Source: Actinoplanes xinjiangensis (GTDB lineage: Bacteria; Actinomycetota; Actinomycetes; Mycobacteriales; Micromonosporaceae). From it: a stretch of 64,000 nucleotides of DNA. The stretch is from the NCBI RefSeq assembly GCF_003148685.1, contig NZ_QGGR01000005.1, positions 186,001 to 250,000 on the forward strand, given 5' to 3'. The notes under the pieces are model-generated. The model was not told the DNA's origin. It did not search any database and saw nothing but the letters and a program-made list of their open reading frames with translations. The position numbers and the translations under genes are program-made. Positions 22 to 40,111 of the stretch are shown piece by piece. Position 1 is the stretch's first letter, and every line of letters starts with the position of its first letter.

Positions 22-326
22 GGCTGGCTCCCACCGCTGTCTCAAGCCCGCCGAAACAACGGTGAGAGCCAGCCGGATCTCCGCGGCTGGCTCCCACCGC
101 TGCCTCAAGGCACTTGAGACAACGGTCCGGACCAGCCAGACCTCCGCGGCTGGCTCCCACCGCTGTCTCAAGGCACTTGAGACAACGGTCCGGACCAGCC
201 GGATCTCCGCGGCTGGCTCCCAGCGCTGTCTCAAGGCACTTGAGACAGCGGTCGGGACCAGCCGGGCGTTCGGGGCTGGCTCTCACCGCTGTCTCGGAGG
301 GCTTGAGGCAGCGGTGGGGACCAGCC
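22..326. repeat. Array of five 63-bp palindromic repeat units
   Basis: Five copies start at 22, 85, 148, 211 and 274, so the period is exactly 63 bp. Each has a 53-bp inverted-repeat core opening with GGCTGGCTC and closing with CCAGCC, plus a 10-bp spacer similar to ATCTCCGC. The centre reads CTCAAG-GCA-CTTGAG in several units. Right arms vary: GGTGAGAGCCAGCC in unit 1, GGTCCGGACCAGCC in units 2 and 3. The spacers are short and conserved, which excludes CRISPR. The same element recurs at 18835, 39829, 55850 and 56000. No gene is supported in 1-460. Confidence 0.9.
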
Positions 327-462: not shown

Positions 463-482
463 GACCTCAACCCCGGGTGAGG
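463..482. promoter_or_regulatory. Candidate MerR-type operator/promoter of the ABC exporter
   Basis: An imperfect inverted repeat, ACCTCAACC then GGGTGAGGT, overlaps a -35-like TTGACC at 461-466. This resembles the long-spacer promoters used by MerR/SoxR-family activators. It argues against using the GTG at 477 as the start of the downstream gene. No MerR gene is in the window, so the regulator is unknown. Confidence 0.35.
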
Positions 483-497
483 TGGCACGTTCGGGCT

Positions 498-2387
498 ATG
501 AGTATGGAAGTCGCGGCCTGGAATTCGATGTGGCATGCCATGAACCGGCAGGACGACAAGCGGCCGTTCTCCCGGGCGACGTTACGCCGCATCCTCGCGC
601 TGGCCCGGCCACAACGCCGGGTGCTGGCAGCGTTCCTGCTGCTCAGCGTGGTGACGGCGTTCCTCGCGGTGGCGACACCGGTGCTGGCCGGACAGGTCGT
701 GAACGCGATCGTCGAGGCCCGCGACGCCCGCCTGGTGATCACCCTGGCGGTCGGGATCGCGGTGATCGCGCTGACCGAGTCGGGGCTGGGGCTGGTGCAG
801 CGGTGGCTGTCGGCGCGGATCGGTGAGGGACTGATCCTGGAACTGCGGACCCGGGTCTTCGATCATGTGCAGCGGATGCCGGTGGCGTTCTTCACCCGGA
901 CCCGGACGGGTGCGCTGGTCAGCCGGCTCAACAACGACGTGATCGGGGCGCAGCGGGCGTTCAGCGACACGCTGTCCGGTGTGGTCGGCAACGTCGTGGC
1001 GCTGGTGCTGACGCTGATCGTGATGATCGGCATCTCCTGGCAGATCACCGTGCTGGCGTTGCTGCTGCTACCGGTCTTCGTGCTGCCGGCCCGGCGGATG
1101 GGCGGCCGGCTGGCGGGGATGCAGCGGGAGGCGGCCGAGCACGACGCCGCGATGAACACGCAGATGACCGAGCGTTTCTCCGCGCCGGGCGCGACGCTTG
1201 TCAAGTTGTACGGCGATCCGGCCACCGAGTCGACCGAGTTCGCGGCCCGGGCCCGCCGGGTGCGGGACATCGGGGTACGCACCGCGATGGCACAGTGGGC
1301 CTTCCTGACCGCGCTGACCAGTGTGTCGGCGGTGGCGATCGCGCTGGTCTACGGGCTGGGCGGGTTCTACGCACTGCAGGGGCGGCTCGACCCGGGAGCG
1401 GTGGTGGCGCTGGCGATCCTGCTGACCCGGCTGTACGCGCCGCTGACCAGCCTCGCCAGCGCCCGCGTCGAGGTGATGAGCGCGCTGGTCAGCTTCGAGC
1501 GGGTGTTCGAGGTGCTCGACCTGAAGCCGCTGATCGAGGAGAAGCCGGACGCATCACCGGTTCCGGACGGGCCGGTGTCGGTGGAGTTCGACGACGTGCG
1601 GTTCGCCTATCCGGCCGCCGACAAGGTGTCGCTGGCGTCGCTGGAGGAGGTCGCGACGCTGGACACCCGGGGTGGCGAGGAGGTGCTGCACGGCGTGTCG
1701 TTCACGGCCGAGCCGGGGCAGATGGTGGCCCTGGTCGGGTCGTCGGGTGCGGGCAAGTCGACGATGGCGAGCCTGCTGCCCCGGCTGTACGACGCGGGCG
1801 AGGGTGCGGTGCGGCTCGGCGGGGTCGACGTGCGTGACCTGAGTGCGGCCTCGCTGCGGCAGACGCTCGGCATGGTGACCCAGGACGGGCATCTGTTCCA
1901 CGAGTCGGTCCGGGCGAACCTGCTGCTGGCCCGGCCGGACGCGAGCGAGGACGACCTGTGGGACGCACTGCGCCGCGCTCACGTCGCCGATCTGATCGAG
2001 TCGCTGCCGGACGGGCTGGACACGGTCGTCGGGGAACGCGGCTACCGGCTGTCCGGCGGGGAACGGCAGCGGCTCACCATCGCCCGGCTGCTGCTCGCCC
2101 GGCCGCGGGTGGTGGTGCTCGACGAGGCGACCGCCCATCTGGACTCGACGTCGGAGCAGGCGGTGCAGGCGGCCCTCGGTGAGGCGCTGGCCGGGCGTAC
2201 CGCGGTGGTGATCGCGCACCGGCTGTCGACGGTCCGGGCGGCCGATCAGATCCTGGTCGTCGAGGACGGGCGGGTCGTCGAACGCGGCACCCATCCCGAG
2301 TTGCTCGCCGTCGGCGGACGGTACGAACAGTTGTACCGGACGCAGTTCAGTGAGGCAGTGCCCCCGACGCCCGCCGGACGGCGGTGA
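498..2387 (+). CDS. ABC exporter, fused permease and ATPase
   Basis: A 629-residue half-transporter of the MsbA/multidrug exporter type, expected to act in the cytoplasmic membrane as a dimer. An N-terminal membrane domain of about six helices (residues 45-330) is followed by a nucleotide-binding domain. Walker A GSSGAGKST is near residue 414, the ABC signature LSGGE near 518, Walker B VVVLDEATA near 540, and the H-loop AHRLST follows. I chose the ATG at 498. The GTG at 477 falls inside a candidate operator, and ATGs at 504 and 540 remain possible. The substrate cannot be told. The 3' end overlaps the convergent downstream gene by 41 bp. Confidence 0.9.
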   Translation: MSMEVAAWNSMWHAMNRQDDKRPFSRATLRRILALARPQRRVLAAFLLLSVVTAFLAVATPVLAGQVVNAIVEARDARLVITLAVGIAVIALTESGLGLVQRWLSARIGEGLILELRTRVFDHVQRMPVAFFTRTRTGALVSRLNNDVIGAQRAFSDTLSGVVGNVVALVLTLIVMIGISWQITVLALLLLPVFVLPARRMGGRLAGMQREAAEHDAAMNTQMTERFSAPGATLVKLYGDPATESTEFAARARRVRDIGVRTAMAQWAFLTALTSVSAVAIALVYGLGGFYALQGRLDPGAVVALAILLTRLYAPLTSLASARVEVMSALVSFERVFEVLDLKPLIEEKPDASPVPDGPVSVEFDDVRFAYPAADKVSLASLEEVATLDTRGGEEVLHGVSFTAEPGQMVALVGSSGAGKSTMASLLPRLYDAGEGAVRLGGVDVRDLSAASLRQTLGMVTQDGHLFHESVRANLLLARPDASEDDLWDALRRAHVADLIESLPDGLDTVVGERGYRLSGGERQRLTIARLLLARPRVVVLDEATAHLDSTSEQAVQAALGEALAGRTAVVIAHRLSTVRAADQILVVEDGRVVERGTHPELLAVGGRYEQLYRTQFSEAVPPTPAGRR

Positions 2388-3089: not shown

Positions 3090-3222
3090 AATTCAAAGCA
3101 TCCGGCGGGTTAACGATTCCCAGGGATGTTTCGTCTGTGCCCGGTTTCCGGGGGGTCATCAATGCGGCGGCGCGGAGTGCCGCACGGTGTGGCGCTCCTC
3201 ATGGTCGGCAAGGAGAATTTTT

Positions 3223-3426
3223 ATGGCCACCGGTGTCGTGAAGTGGTTCAACAGCGACAAGGGCTTCGGCTTCATCACCCAGGACGGCGGCGGACCCGAC
3301 GTGTTCGCCCACTTCTCCGCGATCGCGACGAGTGGATTCCGGTCCCTGGAGGAAAACCAGCGGGTGGAATTCGAGGTCTCGCAGGGCGCGAAGGGCCCGC
3401 AGGCGGAGAATATCCGTACGATCTGA
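3223..3426 (+). CDS. cspA: Cold-shock protein (CspA family)
   Basis: A 67-residue single OB-fold cold-shock domain, cytoplasmic, acting as a nucleic-acid chaperone. Both RNA-binding motifs are present: KGFGFI near residues 14-19 and VFAHF near 29-33. The family start [10 protein letters not shown] is matched exactly by the ATG at 3223, preceded by a strong AAGGAG at 3210-3215. The long upstream leader is usual for cold-shock genes, whose mRNA structure changes with temperature. A strong hairpin terminator follows at 3472, so it is monocistronic. Confidence 0.95.
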
Positions 3427-3447
3427 TCTTCCACGGACGGCGGAATT

Positions 3448-3468
3448 TTTTCCGCTGCCGGCGGAAAA
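3448..3468. other. Short hairpin after cspA
   Basis: TTTTCCGC at 3448-3455 pairs with GCGGAAAA at 3461-3468 around a 5-nt loop. It lies between the cspA stop and the larger terminator and may stabilise the mRNA 3' end or be part of a double terminator. Confidence 0.5.
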
Positions 3469-3471
3469 GCG

Positions 3472-3518
3472 AGAGCGTGTGACAGTCCGGTTCGGGCTAT
3501 CACACGCTCTTTCTCGTT
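3472..3518 (+). terminator. Intrinsic terminator of cspA
   Basis: AGAGCGTGTGA at 3472-3482 pairs perfectly with TCACACGCTCT at 3500-3510. A T-rich stretch (TTCTCGTT) follows, the clearest U-tract-like tail in the window. Confidence 0.85.
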
Positions 3519-3571
3519 CCGGCCCGGATTTCCGGGTGGCGCCGGTGGTGGCGGCGCCGGTGATGGGCTAC

Positions 3572-3591
3572 TTTAAACTCGCTAGTTGAAA
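3572..3591. promoter_or_regulatory. AT-rich palindrome upstream of the TIGR03086 gene
   Basis: TTTAAACT and AGTTGAAA flank a CGCT centre, an imperfect 20-bp palindrome in otherwise very GC-rich DNA and about 30 bp before the next start. It could be the operator of an unidentified regulator. Confidence 0.35.
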
Positions 3592-3619
3592 CTGACCGCC
3601 GCTGGGAAGGATGCCGCCG

Positions 3620-4192
3620 ATGTCGCTGACCGAGCTGTCCGCCGCCGAACGTCACCGTCAGATCGCCGCCGGGTTCACCGACCGGGTCGAGGGCACCAAG
3701 GACTGGGACGCGCCCGCGCCGGTCGCCGGCTGGGCCGCCCGGGACGTGGTCCGTCATCTGGTCGAGTGGCTGCCGGGCCTGCTGTCCTCGGGGGCCGGAG
3801 TGACCCTGCCGGCCGGCCCCGGTGCCGACGCCGACCCGGCCGGCGCCTGGCGGGTGCACGTCACCGCCGTCCAGGCGCTGCTCGACGATCCGGGCACCGC
3901 CGGCCGCACGCTCAGCAACCCGCACCTCGGAGAGATCCCGCTCGACCAGGCGATCGACCGGTTCTACACCACCGACGTGTTCATGCACACCTGGGATCTG
4001 GCCCGGGCCACCGGCCAGGACGAGACCCTCGAGACCGAGATGTGCGCGACGTTGGTGTCCGGCATGGAGCCGATGGACGAGATGCTACGGGCCTCCGGGC
4101 AGTACGGTCCGGCGGTCCCGGTGCCCGCGGGCGCCGACCCGCAGACCCGCCTGATCGGTTTCATCGGCCGCGATCCGAACTGGACGCCCTGA
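3620..4192 (+). CDS. TIGR03086/maleylpyruvate isomerase N-terminal family protein
   Basis: A 190-residue DinB/MDMPI-fold protein of the TIGR03086 type, common in actinomycetes. Members carry a conserved His triad and often bind a divalent metal; some are thiol-dependent transferases, but most have no known reaction. The family motifs are visible: VVRHLVEWLPG near residues 48-58 and FMHTWDLARATG near 122-133. The ATG at 3620 is preferred because GGAAGG lies at 3605-3610, directly against the alternative ATG at 3611. It is convergent with the flavin oxidoreductase and has no obvious partner. Confidence 0.75.
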   Translation: MSLTELSAAERHRQIAAGFTDRVEGTKDWDAPAPVAGWAARDVVRHLVEWLPGLLSSGAGVTLPAGPGADADPAGAWRVHVTAVQALLDDPGTAGRTLSNPHLGEIPLDQAIDRFYTTDVFMHTWDLARATGQDETLETEMCATLVSGMEPMDEMLRASGQYGPAVPVPAGADPQTRLIGFIGRDPNWTP

Positions 4193-4214
4193 CCCTCGGG
4201 CATCCGGCGGGTCA

Positions 4215-5300
4215 CTACCGGAGCTTGTGGATCCTGGTCAGGGTCTCGTCAGCTTCGGTGACCAGATCGGACAGGACCTCGGCGACCGGGCGGACCTCGT
4301 TCATCCGGCCGACGATCTGACCCACCGGCATCGGGACCACCGTCGGGTCGTCGGAGGCCATCAGGCGGTCGTGGGCTTCGGAGACCAGCAGGTTCTGCAA
4401 CGGCATCGGCAGCGCCGCCGGGGCGCCCTCGACGGACCAGGCCTCGGTCCAGCGGTTGCGCAGCAGGCGGGCCGGTTTGCCGGAGTAGATGCGGCTGCGG
4501 ACGGTGTCGCTGGACGTGGCCCGCAGGAGCGCCTCGCGCAGACCGGGACTGCTGCGGTATTCGCTGGTGCCGAGCCACACCGACCCCATCCAGACGCCGC
4601 GGGCGCCGAGGGCGAGGGCGGCGGCGATCTGCCGGCCGCTGCCGATGCCACCGGCCGCCAGGACCGGTACGTCGACGGCATCGACGATCTCCGGGATGAG
4701 GACCAGGCCGCCGATCTCCCCGGTGTGGCCGCCGGCCTCGTAGCCCTGGGCGACCACGATGTCGACTCCACCGGCGACGTGACTGCGGGCGTGGTCGGCC
4801 CGCCCGGCGAGGGCGGCGACGAGCAGACCGCGCTCGTGGGCCTGGGCGATCACGTCGGCCGGTGGCGGGCCGAGCGCGTTGGCGATCAGCCGGACCGGGT
4901 GCCGGAGGGCGACCTCGACGTGGCTGCGGGCGACCGAGTGCAGCCAGCCGAGGACACCGGGCCGGTTCGACGCGGCCTCCAGCGGCGGCACGCCGAGCCG
5001 GAGCAGGGTCTGTTCGACGAAGTCGCGGTGCCCGGACGGGATCAGCCGGGTGAGGTCGGTGACGGCACCCTCGGTGGGCTGGTGACCCGGCATGACCACG
5101 TCGACGCCGTACGGCCGGCCGCCGGTGGCCTCGTCGAGCCAGGTCAGGACGGTGTCCAGTTCGGTCGCGTCGTTGAACCGCACGCAGCCGAGCACACCGA
5201 GCCCGCCGGCCCGGCTGATCGCCGCCACGACGTGTTCGGACGGGCTGAACCCGACGATCGGATGCTCGATTCCGAGGACGTCGCAGAGGTCAGTCCGCAT
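4215..5300 (-). CDS. Nitronate monooxygenase-like FMN oxidoreductase (IpdC-like)
   Basis: A 361-residue TIM-barrel flavoprotein of the nitronate monooxygenase/2-nitropropane dioxygenase family. It has the FMN-phosphate motif AAGGIGSGRQ and the segment GYEAGGHTGEIG. Its overall length and the C-terminal SGKPARLLRNRWTEAW region resemble, from memory, IpdC (Rv3553), the flavoenzyme of steroid C/D-ring breakdown. That identity is inferred. Its ATG lies 11 bp inside the 3' end of fadD19, so the two are translationally coupled and share the KstR-like site at 6884. A true nitronate monooxygenase remains possible. Confidence 0.75.
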   Translation of the reverse strand: MRTDLCDVLGIEHPIVGFSPSEHVVAAISRAGGLGVLGCVRFNDATELDTVLTWLDEATGGRPYGVDVVMPGHQPTEGAVTDLTRLIPSGHRDFVEQTLLRLGVPPLEAASNRPGVLGWLHSVARSHVEVALRHPVRLIANALGPPPADVIAQAHERGLLVAALAGRADHARSHVAGGVDIVVAQGYEAGGHTGEIGGLVLIPEIVDAVDVPVLAAGGIGSGRQIAAALALGARGVWMGSVWLGTSEYRSSPGLREALLRATSSDTVRSRIYSGKPARLLRNRWTEAWSVEGAPAALPMPLQNLLVSEAHDRLMASDDPTVVPMPVGQIVGRMNEVRPVAEVLSDLVTEADETLTRIHKLR

Positions 5301-6873
5301 CGTGCTCCTTCACATAGGAGTGGGCCCAGCGGTAGTCGGCCTTGCCGCTGATGGTCCGGCTGATCCGGTCGACGAGCCAGACGCCGCGGGGCGCCTTGTA
5401 ACCGGCGATCCGCTGGCGTACGTGGGTGTCGAGTTCCCCGAGGTCGAGGGCCGCCTCGGGGCGCGGCTGGACGAGGGCGACGACCCGCTGGCCGAGCCGG
5501 TCGTCGGCGGCACCGATGACGAGGGCGTCGAACACGTCGGGATGGGCCTTGAGGGCGCCTTCGACCTCTTCGGGGAAGACCTTCTCGCCGCCGGTGTTGA
5601 TGCACGTGTTGCCCCGGCCGAGCAGCGTGATCGTGCCGTCGTCCTCCAGCCGGGCCAGGTCGCCGGGTATCGCGTAGCGGACCCCGTCGACCTCGGTGAG
5701 CAGGGCGGCCGTCTTGACCGGGTCCTTGTAGTAACCGAGGGGCACGTGCCCGCCGCGGGCCAGCCGGCCGATCACGCCGGGCCCGGCGCGGCGACCGTGA
5801 TCGTCGATGACGATGGTGCCGGGGCCGGGCATCACCCGGGGGCCGTCGACCGCGCCGCCGTCGACGTCGGCGACGATCCCGATGCCGGCGAACCCGGTCT
5901 CCGACGATCCGACCGCGTCGGTGACCATCACGTCCGGCAGCGCCTGAAGGTACTGCCGTTTCACCGACGGGGAGAACAGCGCGGCACTCGACGAGATCGC
6001 CACCAGCGACGATCCGTCGTAGTCGCCGGCCAGGTAGGCCTCGATGATGGGCCGGGCCATCGCGTCGCCGATCAGGACGACCACGTTGACCTTGCGGCGT
6101 TCGACCGTGCGCCACACCTCGCCGGCGTCGAAGTGCGGCAGGAAGACGACCGTGTCGCCGGCGAAGAGGGCGGCCAGGGCGGCCCACTGGGCGTTGCCGT
6201 GGATGAGCGGGGCCAGGCAGAACCGGGTCATCGGCGGCATCTCCCGGCCGCGGCGGCTCTGGGCCCACTCGTCGTCGAGCGGGATGCCGGACATGAAGTC
6301 GATGCCACCGCCGAGGACCCGCCAGACGTCCTCGTGCCGCCAGATCACACCCTTCGGGTAGCCGGTGGTGCCGCCGGTGTAGAGCAGGTAGACGTCGTCG
6401 CCGGACCGGGGCCCGAAGTCGCGCCCGGACGATCCGGCGGCCAGCGCCGCCTCGTAGGAGACGTCCGGGAAGTCGGCTCCGGTACCGTCCGGGAGCGCCA
6501 CGATGGCCCGCATGCCGGAGGCCACCGCCTTCACCCGCGACGAGAATCCGCGGTCGTGGATCAGCGCGACCAGGCCGGCATCATCGAACAGATACTGCAA
6601 CTCGTTCTCGACGTAGCGATAGTTGACGTTGACGACCACGGCGCGGAGCTTGTAGACGGCGATCATGGCCACCACGGCCTCGATCGAGTTACCCGCGTAC
6701 AGCCCGACGTGGGCGCCCTTGCCCACTCCTCGATCTTGCAGGAAGTGGGCCAGCCGGTTGGCGGTCTCCTCCAGCTCCGCGTAGGTGATCTCACGCTCGC
6801 CGCAGGCCACCGCGACGCGATCGCCGAAGGCGTCGACCGCGTGCTCGAACAGGTCCGCAATATTGGCCGCCAT
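5290..6873 (-). CDS. fadD19: Steroid side-chain acyl-CoA ligase FadD19
   Basis: A 527-residue acyl-adenylating enzyme expected to activate C26/C24-branched cholesterol side-chain acids with ATP and CoA in the cytoplasm. The AMP-binding motif [12 protein letters not shown] and the lid-hinge region [13 protein letters not shown] are present. It resembles mycobacterial FadD19 (Rv3515c) along its length and, as there, is divergent from echA19. I start it at the ATG at 6873 ([10 protein letters not shown]). An upstream TTG at 6909 would place the KstR-like operator inside the gene. No Shine-Dalgarno is evident, so the mRNA may be leaderless. Confidence 0.9.
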
Positions 6874-6883
6874 CAACGCAAAG

Positions 6884-6897
6884 TAGAACCTGTTATC
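6884..6897. promoter_or_regulatory. KstR-type operator, fadD19/echA19
   Basis: TAGAACCTGTTATC matches the published KstR consensus TnnAACnnGTTnnA at seven of eight fixed positions (the last base is C). It lies in the 62-bp gap between the divergent fadD19 and echA19 starts. Confidence 0.75.
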
Positions 6898-6935
6898 GTT
6901 CCGGGGCAAGGGCTGTACAGAAGAAGGAGAACCGG

Positions 6936-7715
6936 GTGGACGCTCTCGTCGAACAGCGCGGACCGATCCTGATCGTCACGATGAACCGGCCCCGGGTCCG
7001 CAACGCCCTCTCCGCCGAGATGATGGCCGTGATGCGCGACGCCTGGGACCGGGTCGACGCCGACCCCGGCATCCGGGTCGCGATCCTCACCGGAGCCGGC
7101 GGCGCCTTCTGTGCCGGCGCCGATCTGCGCGCCATGACCGGCGATCATCCGGGTGACGGTTTCCGCAACGGCGGCACCGACCTGTCCCGCATCGACGCCC
7201 TGCTCAAGGGCCGCCGTCTGACGAAACCGCTGATCGCCGCGGTCGAGGGGCCGGCCGTCGCCGGTGGCACCGAGATCCTCCAGGCCACCGACGTGCGCAT
7301 CGCCGGCGAGAGCGCCCGGTTCGGCGTCTCCGAGGCGCGCTGGGGCCTGTTCCCGCTGGGTGGCTCAGCGGTCCGGCTGCCGCGCCAACTGCCCTACACG
7401 ATCGCCGCGGAACTGCTGCTCACCGGCCGCCATCTGACGGCCGCGGAGGCTCTCGCGGTAGGCCTCATCGGCCACGTCGTCCCCGACGGACAGGCCCTCG
7501 TGAAAGCGCTGGAGATCGCCGGCACCATCGCCGGCAACGGCCCTCTCGCCGTCCAGGCCATCCTGCGCACGATCCGCGAGACCGAGGGGCTCGCCGAGAA
7601 CGACGCCTTCGCCGTCGAAAGCCGCATCGGCATGCGGGTCTTCACGTCCGACGACGCCAAGGAGGGCCCGCGGGCGTTCATCGAGAAGAGAGAACCCCGG
7701 TTCAAAGGCGTCTGA
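6936..7715 (+). CDS. echA19: Enoyl-CoA hydratase EchA19
   Basis: A 259-residue crotonase-fold hydratase. EchA19 hydrates steroid side-chain enoyl-CoAs during cholesterol beta-oxidation. Crotonase oxyanion-hole segments are visible: [10 protein letters not shown] near residues 56-65 and [14 protein letters not shown] near 100-113. Resemblance to Rv3516 extends over its whole length, including [13 protein letters not shown] and the C-terminal [14 protein letters not shown]. The GTG at 6936 follows AAGGAGAA at 6924-6931. It is divergent from fadD19 and probably repressed with it through the site at 6884. Confidence 0.92.
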
Positions 7716-8502: not shown

Positions 8503-10086
8503 TCAGGCGAAGTAGAGGCGGCCCAGCCCGTCGGCGATCTGCATGCCGTGGAACCGGCCCCAGCCCGACGTCACCGTGCGACCACCGTCGAACCCGCCAC
8601 CCACGTTGAGGCGCACACTCACGGCACTGCCGTCGTGCACGATCATGTCGTCGAGCTGGTCACCGTCGTAGTCGGCGAAGTGCAGACGCCCGAGACCGTT
8701 CGGCGCGTCCAGACCGTGGTAGCGACCCCAGCCGGAGGTGACCGTACGCCCGCCGTCGAAGCCCTCGCCGACGTTGTAGCGCACCGAGATGTCACTGCCG
8801 TGGTGCACGATCATGTCGGCCCGGCCGTCGGAGTCGGCATCGGCGAAGAACAACCGGCCCAGGCCATCGGGCACCTGGAGACCGTGGTAGCGGCCCCAGC
8901 CCGAGGTGACCGTACGCCCATCGTCGAACGCACCGTCGCCGTTGTTGTAGCGCACCGACACGTCACTGCCGTGATGCACGATCATGTCGGCCCGGCCGTC
9001 GGCGTTGAAGTCGGTGAAATAGAGCCGCCCGAGACCGTTCGGCACGTCCAGACCGTGATAGCGGCCCCAGCCCGACGTGACCGTACGGCCGCCGTCGAAC
9101 GCACCGTTGCCGTTGTTGTAGCGCACCGACACGTCACTGCCGTGATGCACGATCATGTCGGTGTAGTGGTCGTTGTTGAAGTCGGCGAAATGCAGCCGGC
9201 CCAGACCGTCGGTCACCTGCATACCGTGATAGCGGCCCCAGCCCGAGGTCACCACCGCGCCACCGTCGAACCCACCGCCACCGGCCCCCTTGCGGACCGA
9301 CACCTCGGTACCGGCGTGCACGATCATGTCGGCCCGCGCGTCACCGTTGAAACTGTCGAAGGTCTTCCGGCCCCGCCACTGCGCCAGGGTCTCGCCGCGG
9401 AGCACGCTGAGCAGAGCCTGTTTGTTCTCGTAGCTCTCGACCTTGTTCCGGTCCTCGCTGAGGTGGATGTGCCACAGGTGCGAGTCGTCGGACGTCGAGG
9501 TGCGGTCGTCGCGGAAGTCGTAGCCCTCCACATTGTTGTCGTTGTCGGCCTGGCCGAAGAACTCCTTCCAGCCGTCCAGCCGGTCGTCGGCGGAGTCCTG
9601 GCCGGAGGCGAGAAGCCGTTTCGAATACTTGGCGATGGTGCTGTAGTCGGCGCTCGCGGCCTGGAAGTCGGCGGCGTTCACCGGGCCGGCGTAGTCGGAC
9701 GCGGCCAGACCGGCGATGTTCACCGAGGCACTCTGTGCGTCCGGGAAGGTCCAGTCGTACGCGGCCGCCTTGTCCGAGGGTCCGCCCTTGTCCTCGGTGT
9801 CCCGCACCGAGTAGTTGCCGGGGTCGTTCCCGGCGCGGCTGTTGTGATAGCCCGGCTTGTTCGCGTAGATGCCGCCGTTGCGGGTGCCCGGCTCCAGGTC
9901 GAGGAGCTGCTCCATCAGCCACCAGGACGCCTCGGTCTGGCGGGACGGGTTCGGATTGGCGGCGGCGGCCGCGGCCGTCGGCTGGGTCACCGCGATGCCG
10001 ACCAGAACCGTCGTCGAAGCCGCGATGGCGGTCAGCCTGCCCAGCCATGCGGAAACACGCCCGCGCGTGGAGATGTACACGTTCAT
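8503..10086 (-). CDS. Secreted protein: peptidase-like N-terminus plus five FG-GAP repeats
   Basis: A 527-residue exported protein. A signal peptide ends near AAAAAANP (about residue 43). Residues 45-245 form a domain containing SHLWHIHLSED, a His-rich segment like the zinc ligands of D-Ala-D-Ala peptidases; the reaction is inferred only. Residues 250-527 hold five FG-GAP/VCBS repeats of about 57 residues, each with a DMIVHxG core and a TSGWGRYHG segment, likely a beta-propeller that binds wall or partner. The C-terminal module is nearly the same in the two following genes, so these are paralogues with exchanged N-termini. Confidence 0.82.
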   Translation of the reverse strand: MNVYISTRGRVSAWLGRLTAIAASTTVLVGIAVTQPTAAAAAANPNPSRQTEASWWLMEQLLDLEPGTRNGGIYANKPGYHNSRAGNDPGNYSVRDTEDKGGPSDKAAAYDWTFPDAQSASVNIAGLAASDYAGPVNAADFQAASADYSTIAKYSKRLLASGQDSADDRLDGWKEFFGQADNDNNVEGYDFRDDRTSTSDDSHLWHIHLSEDRNKVESYENKQALLSVLRGETLAQWRGRKTFDSFNGDARADMIVHAGTEVSVRKGAGGGGFDGGAVVTSGWGRYHGMQVTDGLGRLHFADFNNDHYTDMIVHHGSDVSVRYNNGNGAFDGGRTVTSGWGRYHGLDVPNGLGRLYFTDFNADGRADMIVHHGSDVSVRYNNGDGAFDDGRTVTSGWGRYHGLQVPDGLGRLFFADADSDGRADMIVHHGSDISVRYNVGEGFDGGRTVTSGWGRYHGLDAPNGLGRLHFADYDGDQLDDMIVHDGSAVSVRLNVGGGFDGGRTVTSGWGRFHGMQIADGLGRLYFA

Positions 10087-10128
10087 TCCCTCATTAATTG
10101 ATGCTTATCGATGTATTGGTTTTCAGAG

Positions 10129-10170
10129 GGCCGGCTCTCAACGCCCGTGGGACCGCGGTGAGAGCCGGCC
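10129..10170 (-). terminator. Hairpin downstream of the second FG-GAP gene
   Basis: GGCCGGCTCTCA at 10129-10140 pairs perfectly with TGAGAGCCGGCC at 10159-10170. Its arms (GCCGGCTCTCA...GGTGAGAGCCGGC) resemble the ends of the 53-bp palindromic family but with a shortened 42-bp span, so it may be a decayed copy reused as a terminator. Confidence 0.7.
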
Positions 10171-10177
10171 GTCCGGG

Positions 10178-11641
10178 TCAGGAGAAGTAGAGGCGGCCCA
10201 GGCCGTCGGTGATCTGCATGCCGTGGAACCGGCCCCAGCCCGACGTCACCGTGCGACCACCGTCGAACCCGCCACCCACGTTGAGGCGCACACTCACGTC
10301 ACTGCCGTCGTGCACGATCATGTCGTCCAACTGGTCACCGTCGTAGTCGGCGAAGTGCAGCCGGCCCAGCCCGTTCGGCGCGTCCAGACCGTGGTAACGG
10401 CCCCAGCCCGAGCTGATGATCCGCCCGCCGTCGAAGCCGCCGCTGGTGTTGTAGCGCACCGACACGTCACTGCCGTCGTGGACGACCATGTCGGCCTTGT
10501 CGTCGGAGTTGAGGTCGGCGAAGAACAGCCGGCCGAGACCGTTGGCGGCCTGAACCCCGTGGTAGCGGCCCCAGCCCGAGGTGACCGCGTGGCCACCGTC
10601 GAATCCCTCACCGACGTTGTGGCGCACCGACACGTCACTGCCGTGGTGCACGATCATGTCGGCCCGGCCGTCACCGGTGAAGTCCGCGAAGTGCAGGCGC
10701 CCGAGACCGTTCGCCACGTCCAGCCCGTGATAACGACCCCACCCGGTGCTGACCGTACGGCCGCCGTCGAAGACGCCCTTGCCGTTGTTGTAACGCACCG
10801 ACACGTCACTGCCGTGGTGCACGATCATGTCGGTGAAGTGGTCGTTGTTGAAGTCCGCGAAATGCAGCCGGCCCAGACCGTCGGTCACCTGCATACCGTG
10901 ATAGCGACCCCAGCCCGAGGTCACCACCGCGCCACCGTCGAACCCACCGCCGGAGCCGCCCTTACGGACCGACACCTCGGTACCGGCGTGCACGATCATG
11001 TCGGCTCGCGCGTCCCCGTTGAAACTGTCGTAGGTACGGCCGAAGGCGTGATCCCACAGCTCGTCCACGATCTTGCCGGCGTCGGAGACCTGGGGCGCAT
11101 AGCGGTCGCCGAAACCCGATTCCTGGACCTCCTGACAGACCGTGCCGATCGCCACGTTCTGCCAGGAATCGTTCGGATACTCGCGCTCCATGGCGTTGAG
11201 GAATGCGTTGGCGGCCCGGATCGGGTCGAGCCGCTGTGCCTCGGTGCCCCACCAGTCCTGCTGCTGGAACAACCCGACGCTGGTGTGGTCGAGCTTCTCG
11301 ACGATGTTCCGTATCTCGGTCTCGACGATCACGGTGGTGATCGCGATGACAGCCGCCCGGCGGGGCATTCCCCGCTCACGGACCGCTCTGATGACCTCGC
11401 GGGCACAGGACACCCGGTAGGCGTCCAGGTCACCGGCGACCTTGCCGTTGAGCATGCCGTTCAGCCGGGCGGCCGAGGCCGCGTCGGTGGCGGTCGTGCC
11501 GTCGGGGTCGCAGGCCGCGAGCGTGATGGCCAGGGTGCCGGCCGCCGGTTCCTCGGCTCGCGCGACCGACGGCAGCGTCACCAGCATGCCGCCGGCCAGA
11601 ACCACGGTCACCGCCCGCTTGATCGAATTGCTGAATCTCAT
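10178..11641 (-). CDS. Secreted protein: lysozyme-like N-terminus plus five FG-GAP repeats
   Basis: A 487-residue exported protein. After a signal peptide (MRFSNSIKRAVTVVLAGGML..., cleavage near ARAEE), residues 60-190 contain a helical domain with ETEIRNIVEKLDHTSVGLFQ, reminiscent of lysozyme/transglycosylase-fold proteins that read peptidoglycan (E for catalysis, then S-x-G-LFQ). Residues 195-487 are five FG-GAP repeats nearly identical to those of the neighbouring paralogues. Hairpins occur on both sides (10129, 11667), so it is likely monocistronic. Binding to its own wall or to a foreign wall cannot be distinguished. Confidence 0.82.
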   Translation of the reverse strand: MRFSNSIKRAVTVVLAGGMLVTLPSVARAEEPAAGTLAITLAACDPDGTTATDAASAARLNGMLNGKVAGDLDAYRVSCAREVIRAVRERGMPRRAAVIAITTVIVETEIRNIVEKLDHTSVGLFQQQDWWGTEAQRLDPIRAANAFLNAMEREYPNDSWQNVAIGTVCQEVQESGFGDRYAPQVSDAGKIVDELWDHAFGRTYDSFNGDARADMIVHAGTEVSVRKGGSGGGFDGGAVVTSGWGRYHGMQVTDGLGRLHFADFNNDHFTDMIVHHGSDVSVRYNNGKGVFDGGRTVSTGWGRYHGLDVANGLGRLHFADFTGDGRADMIVHHGSDVSVRHNVGEGFDGGHAVTSGWGRYHGVQAANGLGRLFFADLNSDDKADMVVHDGSDVSVRYNTSGGFDGGRIISSGWGRYHGLDAPNGLGRLHFADYDGDQLDDMIVHDGSDVSVRLNVGGGFDGGRTVTSGWGRFHGMQITDGLGRLYFS

Positions 11642-11666
11642 GACGTCTCCAGGGGTGGTAGAGGTA

Positions 11667-11703
11667 CCGGGCCCGCTGAGCGGGGGTTGCTCAGCGGGCC
11701 CGG
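11667..11703 (-). terminator. Strong hairpin terminator of the NlpC/FG-GAP gene
   Basis: CCGGGCCCGCTGAGC at 11667-11681 pairs perfectly with GCTCAGCGGGCCCGG at 11689-11703 around GGGGGTT. The 15-bp stem has no T-tract, as is common in actinomycetes. Confidence 0.8.
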
Positions 11704-11731
11704 ACGGTTGCCGATCGACGGTGTCGGCCGG

Positions 11732-13243
11732 TCAGCTGAAGTAGAGGCGGCCCAGGCCGTCGGCGATCTGGATGCCGTGGAACCGGCCCCAGCCCGAGGT
11801 CACGGTGCGGCCGCTGTCGAACGCGCCACCCACGTTGAGGCGCACACTCACGGCACTGCCGTCGTGCACGATCATGTCGTCCAACTGGTCACCGTCGTAG
11901 TCGGCGAAGTGCAGGCGACCCAGCCCGTTCGGAGCGTCCAGACCGTGGTAACGGCCCCAGCCGGAGGTGATGGTCCGCCCGCCGTCGAAGCCGCCGCTGG
12001 TGTTGTAGCGCACCGAGACGTCACTGCCGTCGTGGACGACCATGTCGGCCTTGTCGTCGCGGTTGATGTCGGCGAAGAACACCCGACCCAGACCGTCGGG
12101 CACCTGAACACCGTGGTAGCGGCCCCAGCCGGAGGTGACCGCGTGGCCACCGTCGAAGGCCTCGCCGACGTTGTGGCGCACCGAGATGTCACTGCCGTGG
12201 TGCACGATCATGTCGGCGCGGCCGTCACCGGTGAAGTCCGCGAAGTACAGCCGGCCCAGACCGCCGGAGACCTGGAGACCGTGATAGCGGCCCCAGCCGG
12301 TGCTCACCGTACGGCCGCCGTCGAAGGCGCCCTGGCCGTTGTTGTAACGCACCGACACGTCACTGCCGTGATGCACGATCATGTCGGTGAAGTGGTCGTC
12401 GTTGAAGTCCGCGAAGAACACCCGGCCCAGGCCGTCGGGTACCTGCATACCGTGGTAGCGGCCCCACCCGGTCGTGGCCACCGTGCCGCCGCCGAAACCA
12501 CCGCCGGAGCCGCCCTTGCGGACCGACACCTCGGTACCGGCGTGCACGATCATGTCGGTCCGCGCGTCACCGTCGAAGCTGTCGAAGTTGCCGTTGATGA
12601 TGTTGTCGTACCGGACGGGCGTGTAGGAACTCGCGTAGGAGCTGCTCCAGGCGCGCTCGATGGTGGAGTCGATGTCACCGCCGGTCTGTTCGATGACGAC
12701 CGGCCGGGTGTGGTCGGCGTCGGCCCACTTGACGAACAGCGCCACGTGGTTCTCGTCCGGGTCACCGGTGTGGCGCAGCAGCGCGTCACCCGCCTGCAGC
12801 GACGACCGTGCGATCGGGAACGACCTGTTGTCCAGGTTGCCGGTCCAGAACTCGTCGCCCCGCCCGCCCAGGCCCCAGGCCATCGCGACGAAGCCGGAAC
12901 AGTCGGTGCGGTAGTCGCCGTTGGCGTTGCGGTAGCACCGTTCCTGGCTGTACGGGACACCGCCGACGCTCAGCCAGCTGCGTGCCCGGCTGATCACCTC
13001 GTCCCGGGTCAGGTCCTGGTCGGACCCGTTGTCGTCGCACCGGAGCGGGGTGGTGCCGACCGCGGCGAGGGCCGAGGCGGACGTGCCGGGCACCGCGCCG
13101 GTGTAGTACGCCGACACCGGCAGTTCCGGGTCACCGGGCGCGGCCGGCCCGGCCGCCGCGGACGACACCGCCAGCGGCCCGGCGAGCAACGCCATCGGAA
13201 CGGCCAGCGACAGGGCCACTCGACGCAACAATCGCACGTTCAT
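11732..13243 (-). CDS. Secreted NlpC/P60-like hydrolase with five FG-GAP repeats
   Basis: A 503-residue exported protein. The signal peptide starts at the ATG at 13243 (MNVRLLRRVALSLAVPMALL), preceded by GGAGGACAGAGAG. Residues 90-205 show a papain-like NlpC/P60 amidase: a catalytic Cys in TDCSGFVAMAWGL and a His in ENHVALFVKW, suggesting cleavage of peptidoglycan stem peptides. Five FG-GAP repeats fill residues 210-503, matching the two neighbours. It is divergent from the SARP regulator, and the shared gap has 11-bp-spaced heptamers, so that regulator may control it. Confidence 0.87.
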   Translation of the reverse strand: MNVRLLRRVALSLAVPMALLAGPLAVSSAAAGPAAPGDPELPVSAYYTGAVPGTSASALAAVGTTPLRCDDNGSDQDLTRDEVISRARSWLSVGGVPYSQERCYRNANGDYRTDCSGFVAMAWGLGGRGDEFWTGNLDNRSFPIARSSLQAGDALLRHTGDPDENHVALFVKWADADHTRPVVIEQTGGDIDSTIERAWSSSYASSYTPVRYDNIINGNFDSFDGDARTDMIVHAGTEVSVRKGGSGGGFGGGTVATTGWGRYHGMQVPDGLGRVFFADFNDDHFTDMIVHHGSDVSVRYNNGQGAFDGGRTVSTGWGRYHGLQVSGGLGRLYFADFTGDGRADMIVHHGSDISVRHNVGEAFDGGHAVTSGWGRYHGVQVPDGLGRVFFADINRDDKADMVVHDGSDVSVRYNTSGGFDGGRTITSGWGRYHGLDAPNGLGRLHFADYDGDQLDDMIVHDGSAVSVRLNVGGAFDSGRTVTSGWGRFHGIQIADGLGRLYFS

Positions 13244-18402: not shown

Positions 18403-19404
18403 GTGGATACGCTGTCGGCGCCGCTGACCATCGCCTTCGACTACACCCGCTCCCTGGGGCCGGTGCTGGGCCGGTTCATGGCGGGGCTGCGCGAGCGGCG
18501 GGTGCTGGGCGGGCGCACCTCGGACGGGCGGGTGCGGGTGCCGCCGCTCGAGTACGACCCGGACACCCACGAGCCGGTCACCGACTTCGTCGAGGTCTCC
18601 CCCACCGGCACCGTGCTCAGCTGGACCTGGACCGACCGGCTGCTGGAGGGACAGCCGCTGGACCGTCCGTTCGGGTGGGCGCTGATCCGCCTCGACGGGG
18701 CGGACACGCCGCTGCTGCACGCGGTCGACGCGGGCACCGCGGAGGCGATGAACACCGGCATGCGGGTACGGATCCGCTGGGCCGCGTCGCCGGTCGGCCA
18801 CATCCGTGACATCGCGTGCTTCGAGCCGGAACCCGTGGGGCTCCCACCGCTGTCTCACGGGCGCTGTGACAGCGGTGGGAGCCCCACCGGGACTTCGGAC
18901 GGCGACGGCGGTGCGGCGGCGGCCCCGCCGGTGACGATCATGACGACGCCGATCCGGCTGCACTACCGGCACAGCACGTCGGTGGAGGAGAGCGGGTATC
19001 TGCGTGCGCTCGCCGAGGGACGGATCACGGGGCGGCGGTGCCCGGTCTGCCGGAAGGTGTACGTGCCGCCGCGGGTGTGCCCCGCCTGCGGGGTGGCCAC
19101 CGACGAGGAGGTCGAGGTGGCCGACCGCGGGACGGTCACCACCTTCTGCGTGGTCAACGTGCCGTTCGCGGGGCAGCGGCTGACCCCGCCCTACGTGGTC
19201 GCCCAGGTGCTGCTCGACGGGGCGGACATCCCGATCCCCCACCTCGTCCTCGGCGTGCCGGCGGCGGAGGTGCGGATGGGACTGCGGGTGACGGCGGTGT
19301 GGCGGGACCGGGCCGACTGGTCGACGACGCCGGAGAACATCGACCACTTCGAGCCGAGCGGGGAAGCGGACGCACCCTACGAGACCTTTGCGGAGCACCT
19401 GTGA
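18403..19404 (+). CDS. Double DUF35 (Zn-ribbon/OB-fold) protein, Rv3521-like
   Basis: A 333-residue protein with two MaoC/OB-type DUF35 halves. The second (residues 175-333) has a rubredoxin-like zinc ribbon, CPVCRKVYVPPRVCPACG near residue 212. DUF35 proteins partner thiolases and hydratases acting on acyl-CoAs. The order DUF35-ltp4-ltp3 matches Rv3521-Rv3523 in the mycobacterial KstR regulon. A 53-bp palindromic element (18835-18887) is inserted in frame between the halves and adds about 18 residues (GLPPLSHGRCDSGGSP). It starts with GTG just after a KstR site and overlaps ltp4 by GTGA. Confidence 0.85.
   Translation: MDTLSAPLTIAFDYTRSLGPVLGRFMAGLRERRVLGGRTSDGRVRVPPLEYDPDTHEPVTDFVEVSPTGTVLSWTWTDRLLEGQPLDRPFGWALIRLDGADTPLLHAVDAGTAEAMNTGMRVRIRWAASPVGHIRDIACFEPEPVGLPPLSHGRCDSGGSPTGTSDGDGGAAAAPPVTIMTTPIRLHYRHSTSVEESGYLRALAEGRITGRRCPVCRKVYVPPRVCPACGVATDEEVEVADRGTVTTFCVVNVPFAGQRLTPPYVVAQVLLDGADIPIPHLVLGVPAAEVRMGLRVTAVWRDRADWSTTPENIDHFEPSGEADAPYETFAEHL
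18835..18887. repeat. 53-bp palindromic element inside the DUF35 gene
   Basis: GTGGGGCTCCCACCGCTGTC at 18835-18854 pairs perfectly (20 bp) with the complement at 18868-18887 around a 13-nt loop. It shares the CTCCCACCGCTGTC core and the 53-bp length of the family but has GTGGGG/CCCCAC ends. It lies at the junction of the two protein domains. Confidence 0.9.
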
Positions 19405-37485: not shown

Positions 37486-38771
37486 ACCTCGACCTGGACC
37501 CGCCGGCGGCCGCGTTCCGGGACACCGTGCGGGAGTGGCTGGCCGCCAACGTTCCGGCCACCGCGCTGCCCGCCCCGGACACCCCGGCCGGAAGCGCCGC
37601 GCACCGGGAGTGGGAGGCACGCCTCGCCGGCGCCGGACTCGCGGCCGTGTCGTGGCCCGTCGAATACGGCGGGCGGGCCGCCCCGCCGCTGCACGCGCTG
37701 CTGTTCGACGAGGAGTACTTCGCGGCCGGAGCACCCGTGCGGATCGGGCAGAACGGGCTGTTCCTGCTGGCACCGACACTGCTCGCACACGGCACGGCGG
37801 AACAGTGCGCGCGGATCCTGCCGCCGATGGCCCGCGGTGAGCAGGTGTGGGCACAGGCCTGGTCGGAACCGTCCGCCGGAAGCGACCTGGCGGCCATCCG
37901 GTCCCGTGCCCGGCCCGTCGACGGTGGATGGCTGCTGTCCGGCCAGAAGACGTGGAGTTCCCGGGCCGTCGTCGCCGACCGGGCGTTCGGGCTGTTCCGC
38001 AGCTCCGCCGGGGAACGCCACCGCGGGCTCACCTACCTCATGTTCGACCTGCGGGCACCCGGGGTGACCGTGCGGCCGATCGAACAGCTGGACGGGACAG
38101 CCGGGTTCGCGGAGATCTTCCTCGACGACGTGTTCGTGCCCGATGCCGACGTGATCGGCGTGCCCGGTGACGGGTGGCGGGTCGCGATGAGTACGGCGGG
38201 GCACGAACGCGGGCTCACGCTGCGCGGACCGGGCCGGTTCACGGCGGCGGCGTCGCGCCTGGTCGCCCTCGCCGCTCCTGTCCCCGGGCCGGATTCCGCC
38301 GACGGTGCCGCTACCGCCGGCGGCGCTGCTCTTCCCGGCGGTGCCGCTCTTCCCCGCGGTGCCGATCTTTCCGGCGGTGCCATTCTTTCCGGCGGTGCCG
38401 CTGCTGCCGGCGGCGCTGCTCCTCCCGGCGGTGCCGATCTTTCCGGCGGTGCCGATCTTTCCGGCGGTGACGATCTTTCCGGCGCGCTCGGCGGGCGGGT
38501 GGTGGACGCCTGGATCGGGGCGCGGGCCTATCGGATGCAGGCGTATGCGTCGCTCGATGAACCGGTCGCGCCGAGCGCCACCAAACTGTTCTGGTCGTCG
38601 CTGGACGTCGCCCTGCACGAGACCGCGCTCGACCTGCTCGGCCCCTATGCGGAGATCGACTCCGGCTGGACCGGAGCCTATCTGTTCTCGCTCGCCGGGC
38701 CGATCTACGCCGGGACCAACGAGATCCAGCGGGACATCCTCGCCCAGCGCGAACTCGGGCTGCCCCGATGA
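37482..38771 (+). CDS. fadE31: Acyl-CoA dehydrogenase FadE31 with hexapeptide insertion
   Basis: A 429-residue ACAD subunit, usually about 370-380 residues, expected to pair with FadE32/FadE33 in C/D-ring beta-oxidation. The signature QAWSEPSAGSDLAAI lies near residues 125-139, and the C-terminal YAGTNEIQRDILAQRELGL is intact. Between the middle and C-terminal domains, residues 274-333 are ten GGAxxx hexapeptides encoded by an 18-bp repeat. They keep the frame and lie where the helical domain begins, probably as a surface loop. The ATG at 37482 overlaps the hydratase stop; the stop overlaps fadE32. Confidence 0.88.
   Translation: MNLDLDPPAAAFRDTVREWLAANVPATALPAPDTPAGSAAHREWEARLAGAGLAAVSWPVEYGGRAAPPLHALLFDEEYFAAGAPVRIGQNGLFLLAPTLLAHGTAEQCARILPPMARGEQVWAQAWSEPSAGSDLAAIRSRARPVDGGWLLSGQKTWSSRAVVADRAFGLFRSSAGERHRGLTYLMFDLRAPGVTVRPIEQLDGTAGFAEIFLDDVFVPDADVIGVPGDGWRVAMSTAGHERGLTLRGPGRFTAAASRLVALAAPVPGPDSADGAATAGGAALPGGAALPRGADLSGGAILSGGAAAAGGAAPPGGADLSGGADLSGGDDLSGALGGRVVDAWIGARAYRMQAYASLDEPVAPSATKLFWSSLDVALHETALDLLGPYAEIDSGWTGAYLFSLAGPIYAGTNEIQRDILAQRELGLPR
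38301..38480. repeat. Ten 18-bp tandem repeats inside fadE31
   Basis: The unit is close to GGCGGTGCCGATCTTTCC, encoding GGADLS-like hexapeptides from DGAATA to GGDDLS. The last three units are almost identical, showing recent expansion. Confidence 0.92.
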
Positions 38772-40111
38772 GGCTCGCGCCGTCGGAGGAGCAGCGGCGG
38801 TTCGCGGACGTCCTCGACATGCTCCTGACCAGGGCCGACCCGGCGGCGGTGTCGGCGGCCTGGGCCGCGGGCGACATCACGCCGGGGCGGCGGCTGTGGG
38901 CGGCACTCGCGGACGCCGGGGTGACCGGGCTCCTCGTGCCGGAACGGTTCGGCGGACTCGGCGCCGGAACCGACGACCTGGTGGTGGCATGTGAGGTGCT
39001 CGGGCGGCACGCCGTTCCCGGGCCGGTCGCCGAGTCCGTCGCGGCAGTGCCCACCCTCCTCGTCTCCGGGCGGTGGCTGCCGGAACTCGCCTCCGGCCGG
39101 ATCCTCGCCTCGATGGCGGCGCCACCCCTGCTGCCGTTCGCCGCCGACGGCGACGTCGCGGACCTTCTCCTGATCATCGACACCCCCGCGGTACGGACGG
39201 GTAGCCCCGGAGCCGTACACCACTCCCTGGACGCGGTCCGGCGTCTCGCGGACGTCATACCGGGCGAGATCGTGGAGACCGGCGCCCCGATTCAGCGGGC
39301 CCTCGATCTGGGGACATTGGCCTGCGCCGCCCAGTTGCTCGGTGCCGGGCACACCCTGCTCTCGATGGCCGTCGAGCACGCGAAGACCCGCACCCAGTTC
39401 GGCCGCCCGATCGGCGCGTTCCAGGCGGTGCGGCACCAGTTGGCGGACGTTGCGGTAGCGCTTGCCTTCGCCCGCCCGCTCCTCTACGCGGCCGCCGTCG
39501 CCCTCGCCGACCCCGCGCCCGGCGCTACCACCCCGGCCCACACCGGGCCACCCCATCCTGCGGCCGGGCCGACCCGGGACCTCTCCCGGGCAGCGGGGAT
39601 GAGCCACGCGGGGCGGGACGTGTCGGCGGCGAAGGTGGCCTGTGGGGAGGCGGCTCTGCTCGCGGCGCGGACGGCGTTGCAGGTGCACGGCGCGATCGGC
39701 TACACGCGTGAGCACGGGCTCGGCCGCTATCTGACCCGGGTGCGGGCTCTGCATCTGTCCTGGGGCACCCCCGACTGGCACCGCCGGCGGATCCTCACCG
39801 AACTCACCGGCACGGCCGTCGAAGATCCGGCTGGCCTCCACCGCTGTCTCAACGGCGTTGAGACAGCGGTGAGAGCCAGCCGGGAACTTGCCGGGACCGG
39901 GACGGGGCCGGTGTGGACGGTGGGCGGGACAGCCGGTGACCCGACGCCTCAGCCCGAAAGTCGCCTCTCGGTCCGGCACGGTGACCCGACGCCTCAGCCC
40001 GAAAGTCGCCTCTCGGTCCGGCACCGGGAGGACGCCGCGGTGTGGCCACGCGACGGGCGGGGTGCGGTCGGGCCGGGTGTGGGCCGTACCGGAGAGAAAG
40101 GGTTCGAATGA
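38768..40111 (+). CDS. fadE32: Acyl-CoA dehydrogenase FadE32 with repeat-derived C-terminal tail
   Basis: A 447-residue ACAD-fold subunit; family members end near residue 345, at HRRRILTEL here. TQFGRPIGAFQAVRHQ near residues 208-223 and LQVHGAIGYTREHG are family-typical. Such short subunits form heteromeric complexes with FadE31, which usually supplies the catalytic base. The remaining ~100 residues come from a 53-bp palindromic element (39829-39881) and two 45-bp repeats (39935-40024), apparently inserted before the original stop without breaking the frame. Its stop overlaps fadE33 (ATGA). Whether the tail is tolerated or trimmed is unknown. Confidence 0.86.
   Translation: MRLAPSEEQRRFADVLDMLLTRADPAAVSAAWAAGDITPGRRLWAALADAGVTGLLVPERFGGLGAGTDDLVVACEVLGRHAVPGPVAESVAAVPTLLVSGRWLPELASGRILASMAAPPLLPFAADGDVADLLLIIDTPAVRTGSPGAVHHSLDAVRRLADVIPGEIVETGAPIQRALDLGTLACAAQLLGAGHTLLSMAVEHAKTRTQFGRPIGAFQAVRHQLADVAVALAFARPLLYAAAVALADPAPGATTPAHTGPPHPAAGPTRDLSRAAGMSHAGRDVSAAKVACGEAALLAARTALQVHGAIGYTREHGLGRYLTRVRALHLSWGTPDWHRRRILTELTGTAVEDPAGLHRCLNGVETAVRASRELAGTGTGPVWTVGGTAGDPTPQPESRLSVRHGDPTPQPESRLSVRHREDAAVWPRDGRGAVGPGVGRTGEKGFE
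39829..39881. repeat. 53-bp palindromic element in the fadE32 3' end
   Basis: GGCTGGCCTCCACCGCTGTC... pairs with ...GACAGCGGTGAGAGCCAGCC. It opens at 39829 and closes at 39881, the same 53-bp span as the other copies. Translated, it reads GLHRCLNGVETAVRAS. Confidence 0.9.
39935..40024. repeat. Two 45-bp direct repeats in the fadE32 tail
   Basis: Identical 45-bp copies start at 39935 and 39980 and encode two copies of GDPTPQPESRLSVRH. The length keeps the frame. Confidence 0.92.

Follow-up and report, generated by a model that had tools for sequence, protein, structure and literature searches.

The window, i.e., the whole 64-kb stretch of Actinoplanes DNA analysed here, carries two arrays of tandem 53-bp palindromes and further copies outside them. 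The palindromes and the genes around them were located as follows.

Stretch L053, plus strand: polysaccharide deacetylase gene, upstream of array 1, with its stop 87 bp before the array.
22-74, 85-137, 148-200, 211-263 and 274-326, no strand: array 1, five 53-bp palindromes with 10-bp spacers, period 63.
477-2387, plus strand, start at 477 or about 504: ABC transporter gene (membrane and ATPase domains), downstream of array 1.
18835-18887, no strand: single palindrome, outer arm different (GTGGGG...CCCCAC), inner core the same.
39829-39881, no strand: single palindrome, read in frame within an acyl-CoA dehydrogenase ORF (38768-40111), in its C-terminal tail.
53605-56967, minus strand, start codon chosen by eye from the translation: flavoprotein gene with FAD_binding_2 domain, about 1,120 residues.
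55850-55902, no strand: extra palindrome just before array 2, with which it shares an open reading frame.
56000-56367, no strand: array 2, six 53-bp palindromes in 63-bp steps, starting at 56000, 56063, 56126, 56189, 56252 and 56315.

The exact 63-bp grid that the sequence-only reading had described for both arrays was recovered independently by TRF, with period 63 in each. The unit consensus was GGCTGGnnnYCACCGCTGTCTC, nine variable bases and GAGACAGCGGTGRnnnCCAGCC, and the core pattern matched the window four times, where 0.00 matches are expected on average by chance. The sixth copy of array 2 (56315-56367) is decayed, i.e., 22 bits versus 43-72 bits for the other window copies. Homogeneous right arms within each array had also been claimed. 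This is true of array 2, whose five intact copies share GGTGACGACC with the copy at 55850, but not of array 1, where GGTCCGGACC occurs in two of the five copies and the remainder have GGTGAGAGCC, GGTCGGGACC, and GGTGGGGACC. Both of the two distant arrays first noticed are real, but they are not isolated, as single copies lie at 39829 and 18835 and the family extends genome-wide. The copy at 18835-18887 is within a predicted ORF (18403-19404) with ChsH2-type domains. At the gathering threshold, no Rfam family matched in the window. A weak, shortened 42-bp hairpin (27-28 bits by the covariance model) was also seen at 10129-10170, and 168-171-bp tandem repeats were detected by TRF across three adjoining minus-strand ORFs at 8506-12558.

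The exact inner core was found 179 times in the genome of the window (G000, a 10.8-Mb draft of 86 contigs), 31 times in A. italicus (G028) and twice in A. utahensis (G066), and was absent from the remaining 64 genomes searched. A copy search allowing up to 9 mismatches gave mostly noise (930 rows), and it was tightened to at most 6 mismatches with a 9-nt loop. In 78 sampled stretches and the window, 247 copies in 93 clusters were counted, i.e., 61 multi-copy arrays and 32 single copies. One chance match in L053 was excluded from later counts. The geometry is a 22-bp arm, a 9-nt loop, and a 22-bp arm, and the loop is 9 nt in 245 of the 247 copies.

Four units were folded, and all were more stable than their shuffles (z -4.3 to -6.6). 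In an alignment of 65 copies from three species, in which the rows of the window's genome were 29 single copies, 94.5% of cells were paired and 11 of 22 pairs had changes on both sides. Double-change cells numbered 128 versus 53 in shuffles, and none of 500 shuffles matched any of five covariation measures. When the alignment was slid, pairing dropped to 31-49%. The outer arm carries the covariation, and the seven inner pairs are invariant, which is in part built in, since most loci of G000 and A. italicus had been picked up with the exact inner core. The potential of each unit to form a hairpin, first proposed from a single stretch of DNA, is borne out by the covarying outer stem. The hairpin itself appears, from these paired changes, to be under selection.

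The placement of clusters relative to genes was uneven. In the window's genome, 51 clusters were convergent, 28 codirectional, and none divergent among the 79 classified, a count in which array 2 is misassigned as codirectional. Palindrome-free gaps of at least 70 bp (266) were 27 convergent, 133 codirectional, and 106 divergent. Eight more clusters overlapped a predicted ORF, and six others, array 1 among them, were at an edge. Genes were called by a simple home-made codon-usage caller, which overlooked the flavoprotein gene around array 2. The clusters of A. italicus were 9 convergent, 17 codirectional, and 1 divergent, with 4 overlapping an ORF, and those of A. utahensis were 4 convergent, 1 codirectional, and 2 divergent. 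Divergent clusters were therefore 3 of 34 classified in the two relatives (1/27 and 2/7, respectively). In another relative, G060, 11 arrays were convergent, 3 codirectional, and 1 at an edge. Where neighbouring genes are codirectional, the three species together had 21 of 46 clusters within 20 bp of a gene 3' end, and only 2 of 46 came that close to the start of the following gene. Array 1, which ends about 150-180 bp ahead of the ABC transporter gene, fits this placement at gene 3' ends.

Base composition and mispairs around the palindromes follow the direction of transcription. In convergent gaps, C was 0.437 and G 0.291 before the array, and C was 0.301 and G 0.439 after it, whereas the gradient was much flatter in the 27 palindrome-free convergent gaps. 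In the mRNA sense, the stretch ahead of the hairpins is C-rich and the stretch behind them G-rich. Instead of a rut signal, this gradient may reflect biased mutation. In 35 convergent arrays, the first-met copies had 2.17 A.C and 0.49 G.T mispairs and the last copies 1.17 and 1.60, a polarity that none of 2000 within-array permutations equalled. In 20 codirectional arrays, among which array 2 is wrongly included, the first copies had 1.70 A.C and 0.70 G.U in the mRNA sense, and the last had 0.60 and 2.35. A U-tract was not found after the hairpins, i.e., the mean was 1.6 T per 9 nt, and at least 5 T occurred in 3 of 130 downstream 9-mers. The canonical intrinsic terminator was ruled out for the palindromes by the lack of this U-tract.

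Some copies lie inside genes. The flavoprotein around array 2, which we take to resemble the ketosteroid dehydrogenase KstD, has a frame that is open through the whole array, and on the minus strand the array reads as a 21-residue repeat, i.e., GWSSPLSQRPGDSGGSQPDSL and variants. The earlier remark that the period equals 21 codons therefore has a literal meaning at this site. Comparison with 10 relatives placed the array in a variable-length loop of the protein. Every one of the 11 genomes has an interval of 1 modulo 3 at this loop, so that the frame is kept. A single palindrome with its own arms is present there in A. italicus, and none was seen by eye in the other nine relatives, including G041, G048, and A. 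utahensis. Likewise, the copy at 39829 is missing from the same acyl-CoA dehydrogenase tail in G048. Since the 63-bp unit is 21 codons, an array can expand inside a gene without frameshift. Termination would be harmful within these reading frames, and not every copy can be a terminator, as array 2 and the copy at 39829 tell.

Other in-frame repeats were observed near these copies. The flavoprotein gene has several low-complexity expansions in frame, and in its C-terminal tail a 135-bp tandem repeat (54048-54470) has 3.1 copies at 99%. A perfect 45-bp duplication was found at 39934-40024 in the acyl-CoA dehydrogenase tail, just 3' of the palindrome at 39829. Elsewhere in the genome, a five-palindrome array (L043, 4975-5279) is placed in one open frame of 1,444 residues (3161-7495), with ABC-transporter-type matches on either side. 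An in-frame gene fusion through the array is possible there.

The unit length is strict in most arrays. In the sampled stretches of the window's genome, 136 of 154 adjacent copies were exactly 10 bp apart, and all spacers were exactly 10 bp in 49 of the 61 multi-copy arrays. Steps of 61, 62, 64, 68-71, and 73 bp were also seen, with one array in 73-bp steps. Spacer identity was 0.72 within arrays and 0.37 between arrays, and base composition alone predicts 0.39. This agrees with the local amplification and homogenisation proposed in the sequence-only reading. Because identity between arrays is no higher than composition predicts, the arrays share the unit length and not the spacer sequence, and the dispersal of a single array is not favoured. 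A common founder spacer, GGGAAGATCC, was considered and rejected, as a spacer at least 8/10 identical to it was found in just 8 of 54 arrays and identity between arrays is at the composition level. Codon constraint was also ruled out as the cause of the unit, since the majority of the classified arrays lie between genes. A palindrome and one linker, duplicated as a block locus by locus, is the best description of the 63-bp unit. Five loci (L024, L026, L048, L049, and L066) had similar outer flanks: variants of CCGATCTTGCnC precede the dimers or arrays at all of them, and variants of GGGCGTGAGCC follow at four. These shared flanks look as if a longer dimer unit had been dispersed.

The family was recognized in relatives by its shape. 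A covariance model found matches in 22 of 200 genomes of the family, 13 of which belong to Actinoplanes, and the listed matches were full length; these counts are lower bounds, as at most 29 candidates were scored per genome. The relatives have the same 22+9+22 geometry with other sequences, and the arms vary between species yet stay palindromic, e.g., CACGGGTGTCTC in G038 and CAGGGGTGTCTC in G040. The copies of G041 also vary among themselves in the inner arm, which goes against a neat picture of one sequence per species. In G060, a genome on a single contig, the arms are mostly GGCTGAC...GTCAGCC, and arm-to-arm steps were 62 bp (20) or 63 bp (22) in 42 of 49 cases, in regions that had been selected for resembling array 2 and are therefore biased towards its period. 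Loop and spacer have nearly the same length there, and complementary arms alternate about every 31.5 bp. The absence of a conserved period in related strains had been named beforehand as grounds for giving up the grid. The period is conserved, i.e., 10-bp separation was exact for 5 of 6 adjacent copies in A. italicus and 2 of 3 in A. utahensis, and 62/63-bp arrays occur in G060. The copy counts of A. italicus and A. utahensis include three weak rows that are probably chance (L190 4414 and L191 5903 in A. italicus, L178 7616 in A. utahensis).

Site occupancy differs between species. Comparison of one convergent site across 14 relatives showed the palindrome in G000, A. italicus, and A. utahensis, with different hairpins or nothing elsewhere. 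A hairpin that G038 and G014 have at one site, CCGATGAGATGGCAG, was considered as a repeat family and dismissed as local, as it occurs only once in each of the two among 67 genomes searched. In six site pairs, which by construction are sites with palindromes in both species and say nothing on how often sites are shared, the arms differed at the same site between this genome and its partner, and the partner, A. italicus in five pairs and A. utahensis in the sixth, had a single copy where this genome has 3, 2, 3, 1, 7, and 3. A random draw of eight out of 19 eligible sites was followed into four relatives, i.e., 32 site-by-species cells. Four cells had a clear palindrome, one a truncated palindrome (by eye), ten another hairpin, two of which were partly palindrome-like by eye (G048 at L075 and G041 at L065), and 17 none by the criterion used; in 5 of the 32 cells the right flank was not located, and 330 bp were scanned instead. 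With four clear and one truncated palindromes in 32 cells, most followed sites are not shared, and because 17 cells have no strong hairpin, a hairpin is not required at every such site. At L018, this genome, A. italicus, and G041 each have a palindrome with its own arms. At L075, a three-palindrome array is present here, and a different hairpin, GATCTTGTGAGGTT..., is common to A. italicus and A. utahensis (L311 and L314). At L039, the genes abut in three relatives and a copy is present in this genome, which is either a gain here or a set of losses in the relatives. No clean target-site duplication was visible at L039, at 39829, or at the flavoprotein loop when compared with relatives without the palindrome.

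A REP-type transposase (Y1/RAYT) had been proposed as the mobilising enzyme, and this proposal was not supported. The only Y1_Tnp locus found in the window's genome (L052, 5035-6644) is IS605-type, with divergent TnpA and TnpB genes, and no palindrome is near it. Among 16 relatives, Y1_Tnp was found in five. It was present in the carriers G038, G040, G041, and G060, where it may have a role, and it was not found in the carriers A. italicus, A. utahensis, G033, G052, G055, and G047, for which mobilisation by RAYT/Y1 was rejected. A search of seven Y1 loci, two of them overlapping, detected no palindromes. A GTAG or CGTC tag was also looked for in the 20-base flanks of 41 arrays and 29 single copies, and no tetranucleotide stood out at a fixed position. 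In these flank profiles, the palindrome was preceded by C and followed by GG/GGG only; like the spacer profiles, they exclude L053 and the A. italicus locus L054.

The palindromes were compared with known systems. REP and BIME elements are outlined in PMC3733652 as high-copy extragenic palindromes, mainly in convergent or unidirectional gene gaps 3' of coding regions, at times in tandem clusters and with G-T pairing noted in the stem. The words Actinobacteria and Streptomyces are absent from the main text of that paper. Like REPs of the GTAG superfamily, the Actinoplanes palindromes are high-copy, extragenic, and downstream of genes, which speaks for membership. However, neither a GTAG/CGTC tag in the flanks profiled nor a linked Y1 gene at the loci searched was found, and these two features mark the tagged superfamilies. 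Compared with REP and BIME elements as outlined above, the units are 53 bp rather than 20-40 bp, nearly perfect, and of fixed geometry, with a strict 10-bp spacer and species-specific arms.

Hairpins at transcript ends offer a second comparison. In Streptomyces clavuligerus, 353 of 535 structured 3' ends are given as lacking a U-rich tract, and 55 ends as bidirectional (PMC8269248). The palindromes resemble such U-less (I-shaped) or bidirectional terminators of GC-rich actinomycetes in having a strong hairpin without U-tract at 3' ends, and by analogy they would work like them. Unlike those unrelated hairpins, the Actinoplanes palindromes are one sequence family, found genome-wide and in arrays. 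The TRIT terminators of Mycobacterium tuberculosis are a repeated, sequence-conserved actinomycete terminator family, to which the palindromes are likened by description only. Rickettsia palindromic elements are summarised in PMC10969869 as in-frame insertions in protein genes, about 150 bp long and nearly half of them in genes. Going by that summary, the palindromes are like them only in tolerating in-frame insertion (array 2 and the copy at 39829), whereas the classified copies are largely intergenic and an array expands in steps of 21 codons. Among the papers listed on repeats, terminators, Actinoplanes, Micromonosporaceae, and Streptomyces, no account of the family was found in titles or the opening of abstracts, which does not establish its absence from print.

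On balance, though without great assurance, we favour reading the arrays as a REP-like family of U-less terminator or 3'-end hairpins of Actinoplanes, amplified locally in a fixed 63-bp unit. Each RNA copy would form a long stable hairpin. Past stop codons, mostly between converging genes, this hairpin most probably halts or stalls RNA polymerase coming from either side and shields the 3' end so formed. Termination would proceed without a U-tract, and Rho probably acts on the C-rich leader ahead of the hairpins; REPs are reported to aid Rho-dependent termination (PMC2817692). Termination is suggested because no cluster is divergent (0/79) versus 106/266 palindrome-free gaps, and by the 3'-end proximity, the covariation, the C/G flanks, and the mispair polarity. 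Local copying in a fixed unit, palindrome plus 10 bp, would leave spacers alike at each site and unrelated between sites. Sites would be gained and lost, with another hairpin at times in relatives without the palindrome (10/32 cells), and arm sequences would diverge between species even at common sites. Within genes, growth by 21 codons would keep the frame, as array 2 exemplifies. More tentatively, the copying could follow the shape of a hairpin and not its sequence: at each of many loci, independently of the others, a dedicated process would duplicate the 22-9-22 hairpin with one linker in a 62-63-bp unit, and it would rewrite dispersed copies genome-wide, which would give each species its own arms at common sites, i.e., concerted evolution of terminators.

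The palindromes might instead be mainly selfish miniature elements, a possibility that we regard as rather doubtful. A putative enzyme that measures the 22-9-22 hairpin and its 10-nt neighbour would copy them, copies would gather at gene 3' ends as the least harmful places for insertion, and any effect on transcription would be secondary. In favour are the geometry of 53 bp, fixed across species with diverged sequences, the copy at L039 where genes abut in three relatives, the few palindromes in the 32 followed cells, the copies that lie in frame within proteins, in a variable loop and in a tail, and the similar outer flanks of some dimers. However, no target-site duplication was recovered at the compared sites, no transposase is linked and Y1_Tnp was not found in several carriers, and mispairs that are strand-polar relative to transcription suggest action at the RNA level. 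An unlikely explanation is that the arrays are DNA sites which hold a chromosome protein, i.e., gyrase or a nucleoid protein, on one helical face where converging genes pile up positive supercoils. Strict spacing at 63 bp, i.e., 6.0 turns at 10.5 bp per turn, would suit it, as would the near-equal loop and spacer with arms alternating about every 31.5 bp, the convergent placement, and the binding of gyrase to BIME-2 repeats outlined in PMC2817692. Against phasing on the helix, however, G060 uses steps of 62 and 63 bp with nearly the same frequency (20 and 22 of 49), this genome has the other steps listed above, single copies make up 32 of 93 clusters, and the arms vary widely between species. 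That the arrays are an artefact of assembling repeats in a draft of 86 contigs is very improbable, as 62/63-bp arrays occur in the single contig of G060, spacers and loops vary between copies, and single copies are present at the same sites in other assemblies.

Under the favoured reading of 3'-end hairpins amplified in a fixed unit, actinomycetes would gain a REP-like system without tag or evident transposase, tied to transcript ends. Two puzzles come with it, i.e., what fixes the exact 63-bp unit regardless of spacer sequence, and how dispersed hairpins at common sites acquire arms that are species-specific and still self-complementary. Array 2 is a case of a palindrome array expanding in frame within an enzyme gene. 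For this antibiotic-producing genus, the palindromes would supply a collection of candidate bidirectional terminators that is ready for use.
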